From an uncultured Ignavibacteria bacterium (GTDB lineage Bacteria; Bacteroidota; Ignavibacteria; Kapaibacteriales; UBA2268): a stretch of DNA of 34,222 nt. The notes beneath the pieces were generated by a model. The model was not told the origin of the DNA. It worked only from the letters and a program-made list of their open reading frames with translations, and did no database searches. The DNA lies in assembly GCA_903862655.1 (NCBI GenBank), contig CAIOZA010000076.1:1-34222 (forward strand), read 5' to 3'. Shown here piece after piece: positions 6,854 to 11,464 of this stretch (the stretch's first letter is position 1; each line of letters opens with the position of its first letter). Both the position numbers and the translations under genes were made by a program.

Positions 6854-7171
6854 TTATACGATTCGGATTCCACTTTTATTAATTTCTCTTACGAATAAAT
6901 CATCATTTGTGAAATCTTCCGGACGGTAGGGTAATGGCGATATATCAGTATCAACCATGAATTGAGCATCTGTCAGTTTGTCTAAATCATAATATCTATT
7001 CCCTTCGAAATTCGAAGAGACTAAAGCCAGATCGATGTCACTCCATTTATTCTGGGTGCCGTTAGCATAAGATCCAAAAAGAATTGCCTGCTCGATGTGA
7101 ATTTGAGATTTCTCGAGCAAATCAATAAATCTTTTGATTTTATCTGCTATTTCTTCAGGGATTTTAACCAT
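6854..7171 (-). CDS. Minimal nucleotidyltransferase (MNT) domain protein, MntA/antitoxin type
   Basis: The 105-aa protein is a stand-alone DNA polymerase beta-like nucleotidyltransferase. FGSYANGTQNKWSDIDLALVS (from residue 32) contains the GSx10DxD catalytic signature: Gly33, Ser34, Asp45 and Asp47. A likely third metal ligand is Asp76 in DTDIS. Such minimal nucleotidyltransferases commonly act as antitoxins that AMPylate HEPN-domain RNase toxins. No HEPN gene is found next to it: upstream is a repeat-rich region, and downstream lies the frameshifted antitoxin-like fragment. The C-terminus (FVREINKSGIRIV) is typical of the group. It may be an orphan or may work with a partner elsewhere. Confidence 0.85.
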   Translation of the reverse strand: MVKIPEEIADKIKRFIDLLEKSQIHIEQAILFGSYANGTQNKWSDIDLALVSSNFEGNRYYDLDKLTDAQFMVDTDISPLPYRPEDFTNDDLFVREINKSGIRIV

Positions 7172-7278: not shown

Positions 7279-7410
7279 GTGTGAAAAGTCTGTTTATGAG
7301 GTCATTCTGAACAAAGTGAAGAATCCATGTATTAGCATTTTCTTGTAAAACAGTCTGGATTCTCACGGTCGCTACGCTCCCTCAGTATGACCTAATCGTA
7401 ATTTTCACAC
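7279..7410. repeat. Long imperfect hairpin repeat of the GTCATTCTGA family
   Basis: Nested complementary blocks form a hairpin-like element: GTGTGAAAA (7279-7287) with TTTTCACAC (7402-7410); AGGTCATTCTGA (7299-7310) with TCAGTATGACCT (7382-7393, one mismatch); and GAATCCA (7321-7327) with TGGATTC (7356-7362). The GTCATTCTGA...GTGAAGAATCC word recurs in reverse orientation at 14241-14260 and 30250-30284. It is non-coding and fills much of the gap 7172-7552. The remainder holds only the second 19-base motif. Confidence 0.7.
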
Positions 7411-7470: not shown

Positions 7471-7489
7471 TTGTCCCCCTTTTTCCATT
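7471..7489. repeat. Copy 2 of a shared 19-base motif
   Basis: Identical to 2210-2228 (TTGTCCCCCTTTTTCCATT), here 64 bases before the ECF sigma factor start. Position alone would allow a regulatory role, but the other copy is not placed in the same way relative to a gene start. Confidence 0.6.
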
Positions 7490-7552
7490 AAATTGCACTT
7501 ACCCTTTTGTACATCTGAAATTTCTAAATTATTTGAATCAGTATGAATCGGG

Positions 7553-8104
7553 ATGACAAATAAGCAAAAAATATTCCTTGATATGTTCGATCCGCTGAGG
7601 GACAATCTCTGGCGGTTCTGCTTATCGATGACAAGGAATAGAGATCAGGCAAAGGATTTACTGCAGGAAACCATTGCCGGTGCTTATTCCGCTTTCGATT
7701 CATTGACTCAACCGGGTGCCTTCTTAAGCTTTTTGTTCACAATTGCATCGCGTCAGTATCAGAAAATGTCTGTCAGGACTAACGGGAATGTTCCTCTCGA
7801 TGAGTGGGATTGTTCTTCGCTTGTGTCCGACACGGTTTCTCCGGAAACTCTGACTGATATTACCCTGATGTATCGTGCTCTCGATCAGTTGCCTCACGAG
7901 CAGAAAACAGCTATCGTGCTGTTCGATCTCATGGGTTACTCTCAGCTCGAAGTTACTACGATACAGGACTGCTCGCTCGATGCACTGAAGAAACGGCTAT
8001 ATCGTGGCAGGAAGCAGCTGGCAGAGCTTCTCGGAGCGAATGATGATATTTCAGATGATATTGATCTACCGGTTCATCCAATCCTGGGAGAGGTTACAAA
8101 ATGA
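7553..8104 (+). CDS. ECF-type RNA polymerase sigma factor
   Basis: The 183-aa protein has the two-domain ECF layout. Region 2 (about residues 8-75) includes DPLRDNLWRFCLSMTRNRDQAKDLLQET-like sequence, with the conserved D-x-x-DLLQET motif that contacts core polymerase and the -10 element. Region 4 (about residues 110-165) includes LDQLPHEQKTAIVLFDLMGYSQLEV and LKKRLYRGRKQL, a helix-turn-helix for the -35 element. The region-4 turn is somewhat divergent (TTIQDCSLDAL instead of the usual LGIS-GTVKSR form). The stop overlaps the next gene's start (ATGA), so the two are translationally coupled, as is usual for a sigma factor and its membrane regulator. The start at 7553 is the only ATG giving a complete region 2. 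Confidence 0.93.
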   Translation: MTNKQKIFLDMFDPLRDNLWRFCLSMTRNRDQAKDLLQETIAGAYSAFDSLTQPGAFLSFLFTIASRQYQKMSVRTNGNVPLDEWDCSSLVSDTVSPETLTDITLMYRALDQLPHEQKTAIVLFDLMGYSQLEVTTIQDCSLDALKKRLYRGRKQLAELLGANDDISDDIDLPVHPILGEVTK

Positions 8105-9969
8105 AAAAGGATTTATCCAATATAATCAAAAATGTGCAGAATACCGATATTCCGCCCTTCCCCCTCGACAATTCAGAGCTGGCAAGTGTTCTGGAAAGAG
8201 TAGACAGGAGCGAATCATCCGGCAATTCTAAACTATTTACAAAAAGGGGAATAAAAATGACATCTATAATAACATCAATCTTAATGCTGGGTATATTTGG
8301 TATAAACTACTTATCCAATGACCCGCAACCAGCCACAGTCAAATCGCAGACCGCGAATGTGAAGCAAGAGAATACATTGAATGAGGAAAAGGGGAATATG
8401 AATGTTGCGGAGGTAGGAAAGAAGCAAAAAAAGGAAGAAATAAGTACCAAAAATGAAATTGTGAATACAGAACTTAAAAATAATAAATTTAGAGCTATTA
8501 CAATTGGTCAAGAAACATTTGACATTGCAAGATACGATACAATGCCTGGATGGGAAAAGCTCGGCTATGATAATTATAGTAATAAATTCTTCTATACCTG
8601 CAAAATTTATTTTAGCAGAATAGATTCATCGCAATCTCAAACCATTGAATATTACTCTTTTATAGAAACTTCCGTAGCATTAACACACTATAAAGAATTA
8701 TACTCAAGTTTAGTAGCTCAGAAAATACCAAATTTGGATAAAATTGGATTTGCTAAAAATGACACAGAATTTAAGGAATTATACGATGAAGCAACAAAAA
8801 CAATCAGTTTACAGGATAATGCAATTGAAAATACTAAAAAATTCTCTAAATATGTTTTGTTAGTGACTGTATTGAATAATAAACCAACTTCTATAAATGT
8901 TATCAATCTTGATATTAATGAACTTAAAAATTTGGGAATAAATTATAATGATACATCAATGTATTACAATACTGAGTCATATTATGCAAATCTTAAAGAT
9001 GAAAATGTTTTATCTGATATTATTTCAAAATATAAGGATAGCCCTGAACCTGCGTTAGTAAAACACAAACAAGAAATACTCTGGAAATGCAATCCAAAAG
9101 GTATAGGTACTGTTATGTTTATAGGTTCAGATGACTATCAATTGAGAAAAGAAAAAAACATCTTTATTCCAAAAGACAATATAATACCATACGATGGCTG
9201 GAGCAATAAAGAATTCTGTATGACATGTCCTATTATGACAGGAACAGGAAAAAGTATTAAGTATGACTACTCCCCACTAGCTTTTGAAAATATTCTTTTT
9301 AAAGAATTATATATAAAATACACAGAAGCAGAGTTTTTTAATTCGATAATCAATAAACCCAGCGATTCATTGGGAAAATCTCTAATATCTCGAGTAGCAA
9401 ATAATCGCTTATCTGTATTTCAAGCTTATCAAAATCGAATTTTAATGAACTATTTGATTCCAGTAGAAATTATGTTCCCTTATCAAAAATCAACAGATTC
9501 TTCTTATGATCAAATATCTGAAGTACTATGGTATTTACCGACCAAAGAGTTTGTTGAAGCACTGCCCGAAAGATACCGAAATGTTTTAAGCAGGGAATTG
9601 AAAGCTATTGAGTTGATAGAATCAGGTAAGATGATGCCCGAAGAAGCATGCAAGGGACTCAGCGTCGATGAAACATTCTTTGAACTGTGTAAATTATCTT
9701 CCGAATCGGTCAAGGATATCAATGTATTTCCAAATCCATTCAATGATAATGGCAAAATTAAGTTCTTCCTTCTCAATGATCGAATTGTAAATATGACAAT
9801 CCATGATGTATCAGGTAATTATATCAAGACATTGATCAACTGGGAAAAATTGCAAAAAGGTGAAAAGACAATTGACTTCGATATGAATGGATACCAAAGT
9901 GGAACATACATCATTAATATCTCAACCGATAATTCTGAGCGAGTTAACAAGCGGTTTGTGAAATTATAA
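8101..9969 (+). CDS. Membrane protein with anti-sigma-like N-terminus and T9SS sorting domain
   Basis: The 622-aa product begins inside the sigma factor gene (ATGA overlap). Residues 1-50 are cytosolic and include IIKNVQNTDIPPFPL, resembling the I..V..V.PPPF opening of Bacteroidota anti-sigma-like proteins. No HxxxCxxC zinc motif is present. TKRGIK precedes a single hydrophobic span (about 54-71), predicting N-in/C-out topology. A Lys/Glu-rich linker (about 72-125) leads into a large unrecognised extracytoplasmic region with scattered Cys. Residues from about 540 form a type A T9SS C-terminal domain (INVFPNPFNDNGKI ... YQSGTYIINIS ... VNKRFVKL). An alternative start, Met53 at 8257, follows a good Shine-Dalgarno (AAAAGGGGAATAAAAATG) and would make the span an N-terminal signal. 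A role as regulator of the adjacent sigma factor is inferred from coupling and topology, not shown. Confidence 0.85.
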   Translation: MKKDLSNIIKNVQNTDIPPFPLDNSELASVLERVDRSESSGNSKLFTKRGIKMTSIITSILMLGIFGINYLSNDPQPATVKSQTANVKQENTLNEEKGNMNVAEVGKKQKKEEISTKNEIVNTELKNNKFRAITIGQETFDIARYDTMPGWEKLGYDNYSNKFFYTCKIYFSRIDSSQSQTIEYYSFIETSVALTHYKELYSSLVAQKIPNLDKIGFAKNDTEFKELYDEATKTISLQDNAIENTKKFSKYVLLVTVLNNKPTSINVINLDINELKNLGINYNDTSMYYNTESYYANLKDENVLSDIISKYKDSPEPALVKHKQEILWKCNPKGIGTVMFIGSDDYQLRKEKNIFIPKDNIIPYDGWSNKEFCMTCPIMTGTGKSIKYDYSPLAFENILFKELYIKYTEAEFFNSIINKPSDSLGKSLISRVANNRLSVFQAYQNRILMNYLIPVEIMFPYQKSTDSSYDQISEVLWYLPTKEFVEALPERYRNVLSRELKAIELIESGKMMPEEACKGLSVDETFFELCKLSSESVKDINVFPNPFNDNGKIKFFLLNDRIVNMTIHDVSGNYIKTLINWEKLQKGEKTIDFDMNGYQSGTYIINISTDNSERVNKRFVKL

Positions 9970-10159: not shown

Positions 10160-11464
10160 ATGAAACTGAAGAGTATCTTGTTGATTGGTCTTTTGATTTT
10201 GTCTGCATTGCCTGCTTTTTCTCAGTTTTCGCAGTCGGGCACAGATTTCTGGCTCTGCTTTATGCAGAATTATAAGGAAAGCAAACCATCAACATCCGGA
10301 ACCATAACCGGTCCACCATCATCAGCCTTAACTCTAACCCTTTATATTTCATCAGAAAGCAAGGCTAAAGTTGAAATCACCTGCAAGGGAGAGAACTACA
10401 GCACAAGCTTGGAGCTGGAACCCAATAAAATGTCAACTGTTATGCTTCCAACTGAATTGCAGATAACATCGAACAACGTCAAAAGCGTGCAGGGTATTCA
10501 TATCACTTCGGATGCTAAGATCGTTGTCAATGCCCTAAGTTCCAGATTACAGACGACAGATGGATTCACAGTCCTGCCTGTTCAATCAATAGGCAATGAG
10601 TACACTGTAATAAGCAGACCTGATAATGAGGGATTACTTTCTGAATTTGCAATAGTAGCAACTGAGGACGGCACCGAAATAAAAATAAAATCTGATGATA
10701 TTAGAAAAGCAAGCAGAGGAATAAACGAGGTAAATGAAATAAAATTAAATAAGGGTGAAACATTTCAGTTAAACTCTGATTATAACAAAAATACTCTAAA
10801 TGATCTGTCTGGAACAATCATTACTTCAAATAAAAAAATATCCGTGTTCAGCGGGCATCAGTGCAGTTATGTGCCTGAGAAGATTATGGCATGTAATTTT
10901 TTAGTAGAGCAGTTGCTTCCCAAAAATTTCGCAGGAACTACTTTCTTTATCTCCCCATTATCTATGCGCTCAAAATATTCGATTAAGATAGTGGGACAGG
11001 ATGAAAATAATATACTCGTAATTAACGGTAATGAGGGTATATTGCTTAATCGCGGTGAGTCTTATGAAAATGACGCTTTGAATGAAAATGTTACCATTAA
11101 ATCCGGTAAACCTGTAATTGTCACTCAATTCAGTCAGGGCAACAGAAACGGAGATAGCGTTGGAGATCCGATGATGTTACTGGTACGCCCTGAGAGCATT
11201 TATCAGATGAGCTACCTTGTGAATGTGCCAGAATTGCCAAGTTTCGAGAGTTTTGTCAATATTTCAATTCCTAAAGATGGGCTGGCTGCATTGACGATTG
11301 ACGGAGTGAAAGTTGACACACAAAAGTTCAACGAATTTTATGATACAACTATGATGACCGGAACCATAAAATTAACACCGGGTGCGCATATCATTAAATC
11401 TTCTGTCCCGTTCGGAATTAGTACTTATGGATTTGGAAGTTTCGATGCCTACGGCTGGATGTAG
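10160..11464 (+). CDS. Secreted IgGFc-binding-domain protein
   Basis: The 434-aa protein starts with a signal peptide (MKLKSILLIGLLILSALPAFSQF). The mature part is a single copy of the IgGFc-binding N-terminal domain type. It opens with GTDFWLCFMQNY and has the central VNALSSRLQTTDGFTVLPVQ and IGNEYTVISRP segments. A long beta-rich body follows (FSGHQCSYVPEKIMACNFLVEQLLP, GKPVIVTQFSQGN), closing with YGFGSFDAYGWM. In Bacteroidota this domain usually belongs to large surface or adhesin-like proteins; the antibody-binding name comes from animal FCGBP and does not imply that function here. No T9SS tail follows; the protein stops at the domain boundary. A GAGG Shine-Dalgarno at 10151-10154 supports the start. 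It is monocistronic, with terminators on both sides. Confidence 0.85.
   Translation: MKLKSILLIGLLILSALPAFSQFSQSGTDFWLCFMQNYKESKPSTSGTITGPPSSALTLTLYISSESKAKVEITCKGENYSTSLELEPNKMSTVMLPTELQITSNNVKSVQGIHITSDAKIVVNALSSRLQTTDGFTVLPVQSIGNEYTVISRPDNEGLLSEFAIVATEDGTEIKIKSDDIRKASRGINEVNEIKLNKGETFQLNSDYNKNTLNDLSGTIITSNKKISVFSGHQCSYVPEKIMACNFLVEQLLPKNFAGTTFFISPLSMRSKYSIKIVGQDENNILVINGNEGILLNRGESYENDALNENVTIKSGKPVIVTQFSQGNRNGDSVGDPMMLLVRPESIYQMSYLVNVPELPSFESFVNISIPKDGLAALTIDGVKVDTQKFNEFYDTTMMTGTIKLTPGAHIIKSSVPFGISTYGFGSFDAYGWM

Follow-up and report, generated by a model that had tools for sequence, protein, structure and literature searches.

A conserved membrane protein gene coupled to an extracytoplasmic function sigma factor in Kapaibacteriales: a candidate anti-sigma factor with a type IX secretion sorting domain and a putative second start

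Introduction

Anti-sigma factors of the RsgI type, known from Clostridium thermocellum, consist of a short cytosolic anti-sigma domain, one membrane span and variable sensors, and a genome may hold many paralogous sigma pairs of this kind. A gene of comparable layout is present in the stretch of DNA analysed here ("the window"), a contig of 34,222 nucleotides from an uncultured Ignavibacteria bacterium of the order Kapaibacteriales (CAIOZA010000076.1 of assembly GCA_903862655.1, positions 1 to 34,222). The gene overlaps that of an extracytoplasmic function (ECF) sigma factor, and its 622-amino-acid product shares with the RsgI type a short cytosolic segment of anti-sigma character, a single span and a variable sensor part, the extracytoplasmic portion carrying inserts that differ among members of the family. 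The two differ in that RsgI is a Gram-positive protein with no link to the type IX secretion system (T9SS), whereas the window protein ends in a T9SS sorting domain; moreover, none of 87 family members matches RsgI_N at E 0.01.

Two further systems invite comparison. Dma2 and its relatives in Bacteroides are described (PMC13088901) as having a sigma-binding domain, a helix, a disordered tether and a C-terminal barrel. The window protein likewise has an N-terminal segment, one span, a tether of low model confidence, a folded and presumably outer-membrane-directed end and a cognate ECF sigma factor; it differs from the Dma proteins in ending in a T9SS type A beta-sandwich rather than a beta-barrel, and in the putative second start of its gene. 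In Porphyromonas gingivalis, the T9SS-tail protein PorA is placed above PorXY-SigP in the pathway, and binding of its tail to PorV was suggested by crosslinking (PMC7712824). The resemblance lies in a T9SS-tail protein placed upstream of an ECF sigma factor. However, PorA has a signal sequence, is found at the cell surface and acts upstream of a sensor kinase, that of the two-component system PorXY; it is not an anti-sigma factor.

In-frame internal starts that give two isoforms from one bacterial gene are on record for AerR, SpaO and ClpB, but none of the three is, judging by titles and the beginnings of abstracts, an anti-sigma factor or a tail-bearing membrane protein, and the portion of the open literature searched yielded no dual-product anti-sigma factor with an internal or alternative start. 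We know of no description of an anti-sigma factor that uses a T9SS sorting signal. None with such a tail is described in the titles and beginnings of abstracts among the matches listed, a body of literature that lies largely outside the subscription journals; two articles that contain both words (PMC11216935 and PMC12045153) describe no tail-bearing anti-sigma factor in their relevant passages.

On the best reading, the gene encodes an anti-sigma factor that would reach across the envelope and ends in a T9SS tail, and a second start would add a twin devoid of the anti-sigma segment; we consider the chances of this composite reading evenly balanced. If the second start is real, this would be a rare case of an anti-sigma gene with two in-frame products maintained by selection at the RNA level. 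The protein would also link the address tag of a secretion system to the control of transcription through direct protein contact.

A conserved family of sigma-coupled membrane proteins

The gene pair and the parts of the membrane protein have the following window coordinates (aa, amino acids; pLDDT, predicted local distance difference test score).

7553..8104, plus strand: sigma gene, encoding an ECF sigma factor of 183 aa that belongs to the clade common to the family
8101..9969, plus strand: gene of the anti-sigma-like membrane protein with T9SS type A tail, 622 aa
8101..8256, plus strand: N-terminal cytosolic segment, aa 1-52, a putative minimal anti-sigma domain (AlphaFold2 model; conserved in sigma-coupled members)
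8257..8313, plus strand: membrane span (hydropathy; AlphaFold2 helix at aa 49-71)
8317..8682, plus strand: low-confidence, probably disordered tether, aa 73-194 (pLDDT < 50)
9448..9705, plus strand: conserved pre-tail module, aa 450-535, with Cys517 and Cys530 (alignments; mostly high pLDDT)
9709..9966, plus strand: T9SS type A sorting domain, aa 537-622, a seven-strand beta-sandwich (PF18962 / TIGR04183; well predicted at aa 537-621 in the AlphaFold2 model)

The sigma protein matches the Pfam domains Sigma70_r2 (E 1.8e-9) and Sigma70_r4_2 (E 5e-9), and its stop codon (TGA, 8102-8104) is overlapped by the ATG of the 622-aa gene as ATGA. An AlphaFold2 model of the membrane protein, built with 58 aligned members (mean pLDDT 61; predicted template modelling score, pTM, 0.50), places N-terminal helices at aa 2-14 and 24-36. 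There is a single hydrophobic span (approximately aa 50-71); it is the first hydrophobic stretch of the protein, begins near aa 50 and is not followed by an AXA-type site as judged by a simple rule. Low model confidence indicates that aa 73-194 are probably disordered. The pre-tail stretch contains exactly two Cys in 41 of the 43 members of the window's own family (f1) and in 55 of 87 members overall, and the conservation of this pair suggests a disulphide.

The tail (aa 542-618) matches Por_Secre_tail, PF18962, at 39 bits for a cut-off of 27, and NCBIfam TIGR04183 at 38.1 bits for a cut-off of 23; nothing else in the 622-aa protein scored above cut-off in a Pfam scan. Tails of this type abound in the genome from which the window derives: at least 150 matches were obtained, all over the cut-off (150 of 304 candidates scored), and the window tail, at 44.5 bits in this genome-wide PF18962 search, falls within the range of 34.8-59.6 of the matches listed. 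The T9SS component searched for, SprA_N, is found as well (E 7.7e-45), so a gene for the T9SS translocon is present.

A profile of the pre-tail module that excludes the tail finds matches in 54 of the order's 123 genomes. In a 296-genome sample of the phylum 17 genomes were matched, 15 of them in this order (the window's own genome included); the two remaining belong to the same class but lie outside the order and match weakly (best E 1.4e-8 and 1.5e-4). The only match in the window's own genome is that of the window. Sixteen named relatives' loci come from metagenome-assembled genomes labelled Candidatus Kapaibacterium (3), Ignavibacteria/-ae/-ota (6), Bacteroidetes (2), "bacterium" (4) and Desulfobulbaceae (1); the last may be a misnamed bin.

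The loci fetched represent part of the module-profile matches and were chosen by protein match, not by the presence of a sigma gene. After removal of exact duplicates (last 120 bases), they comprise 95 non-redundant open reading frames (ORFs) with the module, 87 of which stand behind a sigma gene of the same clade while one more, L066, is fused to it in frame. Seven have no adjoining sigma gene: three run off the end of their contig, L046 is separated from its sigma gene by a second module ORF, L070 lies about 1 kb from a sigma gene, and L077 and L080 have no sigma gene. The gap between sigma gene and module gene measures -30 to 40 bases in 76 of the 87 pairs, the commonest value being -4 (26 pairs), and sigma and module distances are correlated (Spearman 0.34, 85 pairs; as high in none of 300 permutations). 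All counts over 87 genes given here and below leave out the fused L066, ORFs truncated at a contig end and ORFs with no sigma gene upstream. The same architecture was sought behind 14 other Sigma70_r2 genes of the window's genome and was found directly behind none of them (five further places match region 4 only). The co-directional pair of overlapping or adjacent sigma and anti-sigma-like genes is conserved, and its coupling and architecture are close to certain, being established, together with their conservation, from sequence.

The first-pass annotation of the window had recognized the ATGA overlap, the short N-terminal segment, the single span, the long extracytoplasmic part and the T9SS type A tail, and every one of these elements was confirmed. 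The sigma-coupled chimera that it proposed is real, and is conserved in a family that extends across the order: the homologues keep the first 50 or so residues ahead of the span and, like the window protein, match the T9SS type A tail model (80 of the 87 sigma-coupled members at E 0.01). What did not hold is the N-terminal "PPF" motif, which is not a motif of the family. The N-terminal consensus is loose, reading N-L-D-x-Y-F-x-x-A-R and later P-L-x-S-x-x-E-L, with many positions below 50%.

Some members depart from the common layout. A TonB_C match occurs in seven of the 87 members, all of them sigma-coupled. In four members of family f7 (L057, L060, L155 and L156), which also bear the T9SS tail, this TonB C-terminal domain (best E 7.9e-20) was placed in the extracytoplasmic part, following the span and covering approximately residues 174-257. 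In L066 (G050:C130, 1864-4287), one frame runs through sigma factor, anti-sigma segment, span, a parvulin-type peptidyl-prolyl isomerase (E 2.8e-26) and pre-tail region; this appears to be a natural fusion of sigma and anti-sigma factor, which would tether its own sigma factor to the membrane. A fold of L066 was considered as a source for the interface between sigma factor and residues 1-52 but was dropped as evidence (pTM 0.41). L077 and L080 carry module and tail behind a signal-peptide-like N-terminus and are possibly secreted relatives of the sensor.

Different distal ends within one sigma clade

When 12 chosen genomes were searched from the sigma side, 46 matches reached at least 157 bits, one reached 114 bits and the rest did not exceed 95.7 bits; this gap in scores sets the sigma clade apart from other ECF sigma factors. 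A module protein lies behind 38 of the 46 clade sigma factors, counting the fused L066 and the distant L070. Among the eight others, the partners at L208 and L213 carry the tail with a weak module, those at L207 and L209-L212 have a different C-terminal half, and the partner at L214 is a tail-less protein of 914 aa. A profile of the family's first 45 residues was run on the six tail-less partners and on 371 background ORFs. It matched four of the six (L210, L211, L207 and L214) at E 3e-8 to 6e-6, three of the five proteins with the different C-terminal half thus scoring at 6e-6 or better; the best of the background ORFs was L070, itself a family member (E 4e-5), followed by one at E 0.02. Hence, at least four partners of the sigma clade keep the short N-terminal segment and yet differ at the distal end.

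In L207 and L209-L212 the C-terminus looks like a small outer-membrane barrel, and three of the five end in Phe. If the barrel reading holds, these partners would represent a natural domain swap in which the T9SS tail gives way to a barrel-like end, and a swap of this kind on one sigma clade would offer a means of probing what the outer-membrane end of a trans-envelope anti-sigma factor is for. The occurrence of a barrel-like end in place of the tail within one clade suggests that it is the distal end that must reach the outer membrane; as tail and barrel would both place the far end there, much of the "paradox" of a sorting domain on an uncleaved anchor would be removed.

A different view, one of the two alternatives raised in the first-pass annotation, is that the tail senses the functioning of the T9SS, its engagement or failure pulling on or cleaving the anti-sigma factor so that a block in secretion would alter sigma activity. 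The match of the tail model to so many of the sigma-coupled members and the score of the window tail, which is like those of the genome's other tails (see above), agree with such a role. So does the position of PorA, a tail protein upstream of PorXY-SigP whose tail was suggested by crosslinking to contact PorV; PorA is, however, proposed to act through PorY and not as an anti-sigma factor (PMC7712824). Furthermore, the tail is replaced by barrel-like ends in the same sigma clade, and no T9SS gene was seen behind the promoter motif of the sigma factor in the genomes scanned, the site in genome G032 being inside a tail-protein gene and not before it (see below). A tail that senses T9SS function is possible but unlikely, and the exchange of ends points instead to a distal end that has to reach the outer membrane.

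A number of other proteins of the window's genome (L090, L092, L094, L096, L098 and L100), encoded beside other ECF genes, are about 390-500 aa long with one span near residues 90-109. By eye, they resemble Dma-like anti-sigma factors with barrel-like C-termini. Two of them were scanned and gave no Pfam or NCBIfam match above cut-off.

A putative second start at the beginning of the span

Two features lie at the junction of the N-terminal segment and the span.

8241..8250, plus strand: internal Shine-Dalgarno (SD) site AAAAAGGGGA, duplex energy -8.0 kcal/mol with the anti-SD letters
8257..8259, plus strand: conserved internal ATG in the reading frame (Met53), a putative second start where the span begins; 40 of 43 f1 genes have a Met at this place

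This ATG with its preceding SD site is as the first-pass annotation had described it. SD energies are those of the duplex that the anti-SD letters form with positions -20 to -5 (16 bases). In f1, a Met at the span start is preceded by an SD of -4 kcal/mol or stronger in 35 of the 43 genes; in all families together, a Met occupies this place in 66 of the 87 sigma-coupled genes. Where several Met were available, the counts by family, the test with one gene per genome and the dipeptide test reported below used the one with the strongest SD, a choice that slightly favours the claim; the energy test on the 87 genes used the nearest Met and gave the same direction. The SD energy averages -4.58 kcal/mol at the internal Met. 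The 87 gene starts average -3.46, and 729 further Met codons inside the same genes average -1.16 (internal Met versus other Met, Mann-Whitney p 2e-14). The signal persists with one gene per genome (median p 3e-8) and is strongest in f1, where the internal SD averages -6.35 for gene starts that average -4.2. Predicted structure is weaker at the internal start than at other Met (-4.91 versus -6.74, n=340) and comes near that of gene starts (-4.34). In the fused L066, the anti-sigma segment has no SD before it (-0.3) while the internal SD is present (-8.4). Taken together, these data make a second start at Met53 likely for the window's family.

The short form beginning at ATG 8257 would differ from the long one only in lacking residues 1-52. 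In f1, the mean net charge is +2.4 for the 15 residues before the Met and -0.65 for the 15 residues after the span, a difference that predicts a cytosolic N-terminus for the long form. The charges before the Met are absent from the short form: K or R occurs in the first five residues of only 3 of 40 f1 short forms. The hydrophobic stretch has a mean length of 17.0 residues in these short forms and of 13.3 in ten tail ORFs with a signal-peptide-like start. The crude -3/-1 rule is passed by 25 of 40 f1 short forms versus 8 of 10 controls (those of 19 non-family tail ORFs that have a signal-like stretch, L077 and L080 among them). The window's own short form is without an AXA-type site. With so few K or R and no such site, the short form more likely stays in the membrane as an anchored twin than it is cleaved and secreted, a view that we hold with moderate doubt. 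The first-pass annotation had suggested a second, exported form: the second start is supported statistically in f1, but its "exported" part is weakened by the same scarcity of K and R and by the missing AXA-type site.

An exported product is also at the centre of the proposal that the gene has two targets, the long form serving as anti-sigma factor and the short form using the span as a signal peptide, to be released at the surface as T9SS cargo. The conserved internal SD and ATG would be expected in this case, and the standalone proteins L077 and L080, with signal-peptide-like N-terminus, module, tail and no sigma gene, would provide a precedent. Against it stand the properties of the short forms just listed, namely the rarity of K or R near their N-termini, the longer hydrophobic stretch and, by a crude rule, the lack of an AXA-type site in the window's short form, and we consider release at the surface unlikely.

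The internal SD might, on the other hand, not belong to a start site at all but cause a pause in translation or arise as a by-product of a Lys-Gly motif beside the span. In 27 of 66 genes the Met does have a Gly at -4, and the GG of the SD falls in one codon phase in 24 of 35 f1 genes. However, the amino acids that bear the SD vary (for example KG, RR, WR, GG, LG), and the Gly before the Met is coded GGA in 19 of 27 cases, as compared with 58 of 231 at other [KR]G sites. Synonymous recoding with each gene's own codon usage never reached the observed mean (0 of 300, z -6.9), nor did recoding that preserved dipeptides, done on the f1 gene set, reach the mean observed in f1 (0 of 300, z -7.0); single genes are not extreme against recoding (median 0.30; 20 of 66 below 0.2), the signal sitting in the mean. 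The internal SD occupies -16 to -12, much the same place as at gene starts, and accompanies the Met, an SD of -5 or better being found near the span in 40 of the 66 genes with Met and in 2 of the 21 without. Finally, a Met with such an SD site was found in just 4 of 36 other membrane ORFs of the loci. Pausing or a by-product of coding is decidedly unlikely on these grounds.

None of the five barrel-like partners has an SD-preceded Met at the span start, L212 having one eight residues inside the span; since all five lie outside f1, effects of lineage and of tail type are inseparable in this comparison.

The tail as a sorting domain

In a fold search with the model of the window protein, the tail was the sole part covered. 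It resembles the T9SS tails of mirolase (8qb1; Z 10.2, root-mean-square deviation 2.0, 77 aligned residues) and PorZ (5m11; Z 9.8, deviation 2.4, 80 aligned), but alpha-2-macroglobulin and complement domains, as well as other unrelated immunoglobulin (Ig)-like folds, gave Z scores that were similar or higher, so that the fold alone is not diagnostic of a T9SS tail. The idea that the domain is a mere Ig-like fold with no sorting signal, on an otherwise ordinary single-span anti-sigma factor with a periplasmic sensor, could draw on these unrelated hits and on members that barely reach or miss the 27-bit cut-off of Pfam (L060 and L156 at 27.4, L184 at 25.5). It is very unlikely, as the window protein exceeds the cut-offs of two curated T9SS models and the tail model matches the great majority of members (see above).

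A proposed mechanism

What we infer for this locus comprises sigma binding, trans-envelope reach, engagement of the T9SS, a short product with a role of its own, and release of the sigma factor. The 622-aa protein would be a membrane-bound anti-sigma factor whose cognate is the ECF sigma factor encoded by the overlapping gene, and its residues 1-52 would hold the sigma factor at the inner membrane. The single span would act as a permanent anchor, and the disordered tether would lead from it across the periplasm. The T9SS type A tail would take the distal end to the secretion machinery of the outer membrane, a task that falls to the beta-barrel in Dma anti-sigma factors. Such a trans-envelope role through the tail is plausible, its likelihood being at best even and perhaps a shade lower. 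The start at Met53 would yield a twin identical in span, tether, sensor module and tail but devoid of a sigma-binding segment. The twin would probably compete or pair with the long form, so that the ratio of the two, together with the state of the distal end, would set the amount of free sigma factor. A change of that state would free the sigma factor, probably through proteolysis, by which sigma factors are released in other membrane anti-sigma systems. A more far-reaching version, a one-gene, two-product switch in which the tether to the T9SS machinery and a twin competing for its place at the outer membrane let the sigma factor read the occupancy of the secretion port or surface, with paralogue inserts (TonB_C, parvulin) reading differing surface conditions, is rather doubtful.

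A number of observations weigh against a trans-envelope anti-sigma factor with a twin. The translocon could become jammed by a tail whose anchor is not cleaved. At E 0.01, none of the 87 members matched a known anti-sigma domain of Pfam (RsgI_N, FecR and zf-HC2 having been sought), so that the anti-sigma role rests on position and conservation. Nor does the fused L066 support an interface: its fold, for which only the sigma rows were aligned, reached a pTM of 0.41, and its anti-sigma segment had no aligned relatives. The tail model is not matched at E 0.01 by seven of the 87 members or by L066. Among the tail-less partners, L212 (E 0.09) and L209 (E 0.14) match the N-terminal profile weakly; the five barrel-like partners have no Pfam or NCBIfam match above cut-off, and a simple alternation score exceeds the 95th percentile in two of the five only, L209 and L210. 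The internal SD is patchy beyond f1 (f2 1/12, f3 1/3, f7 4/11, f8 2/4, f9 2/10, f10 1/4), which makes the two starts look like a trait of lineage. Lastly, no regulon beyond the sigma genes' own sites was detected, either with a strict promoter pattern in the window's genome or with a relaxed one in eight genomes (see below).

Promoter and neighbouring genes

7477..7502, plus strand: putative sigma-dependent promoter of the sigma gene, CCCTTTTT - N11 - CACTTAC (dyads enriched upstream of f1 sigma genes)

Many f1 sigma genes are preceded by a dyad of the form [CA]CTTTTTT-N11-14-CACTTA. The best dyads occur in 22 of the 43 f1 sigma upstream regions, as compared with a maximum of 13 in 10 shuffles, and the window's copy is most simply taken as the sigma factor's own promoter. 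In the window's genome, the strict pattern has one site, that at 7477-7502, and the reversed control three. The relaxed pattern gave 17 sites in the eight genomes versus 12 for the reversed control (5 versus 0 in G032 alone). Six of the 17 sites are followed by family sigma genes, the window's own included; behind the rest there is either no ORF by the rule applied or short or varied ORFs. One of the G032 sites, at L197, was considered as a promoter of a tail-protein gene and rejected, as it lies inside that ORF.

A pattern scan 3' of the 622-aa gene detected no terminator. The downstream gene (10160-11464) encodes a protein whose start resembles a signal peptide and which matches the IgGFc_binding domain (E 5e-58). 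An IgGFc-like gene in this position was not found in the other fetched loci, a weak negative, as these extend a median of 1609 bases past the gene. On the other side, between two genes at 7300-7400, an element GTCATTCTGA ... TCAGTATGACC was noticed by eye that resembles a dispersed inverted repeat. The minus strand at 6854-7171 encodes a 105-aa protein that looks, by eye, like a minimal nucleotidyltransferase, which we take to be the antidote half of a known type of toxin-antitoxin system.

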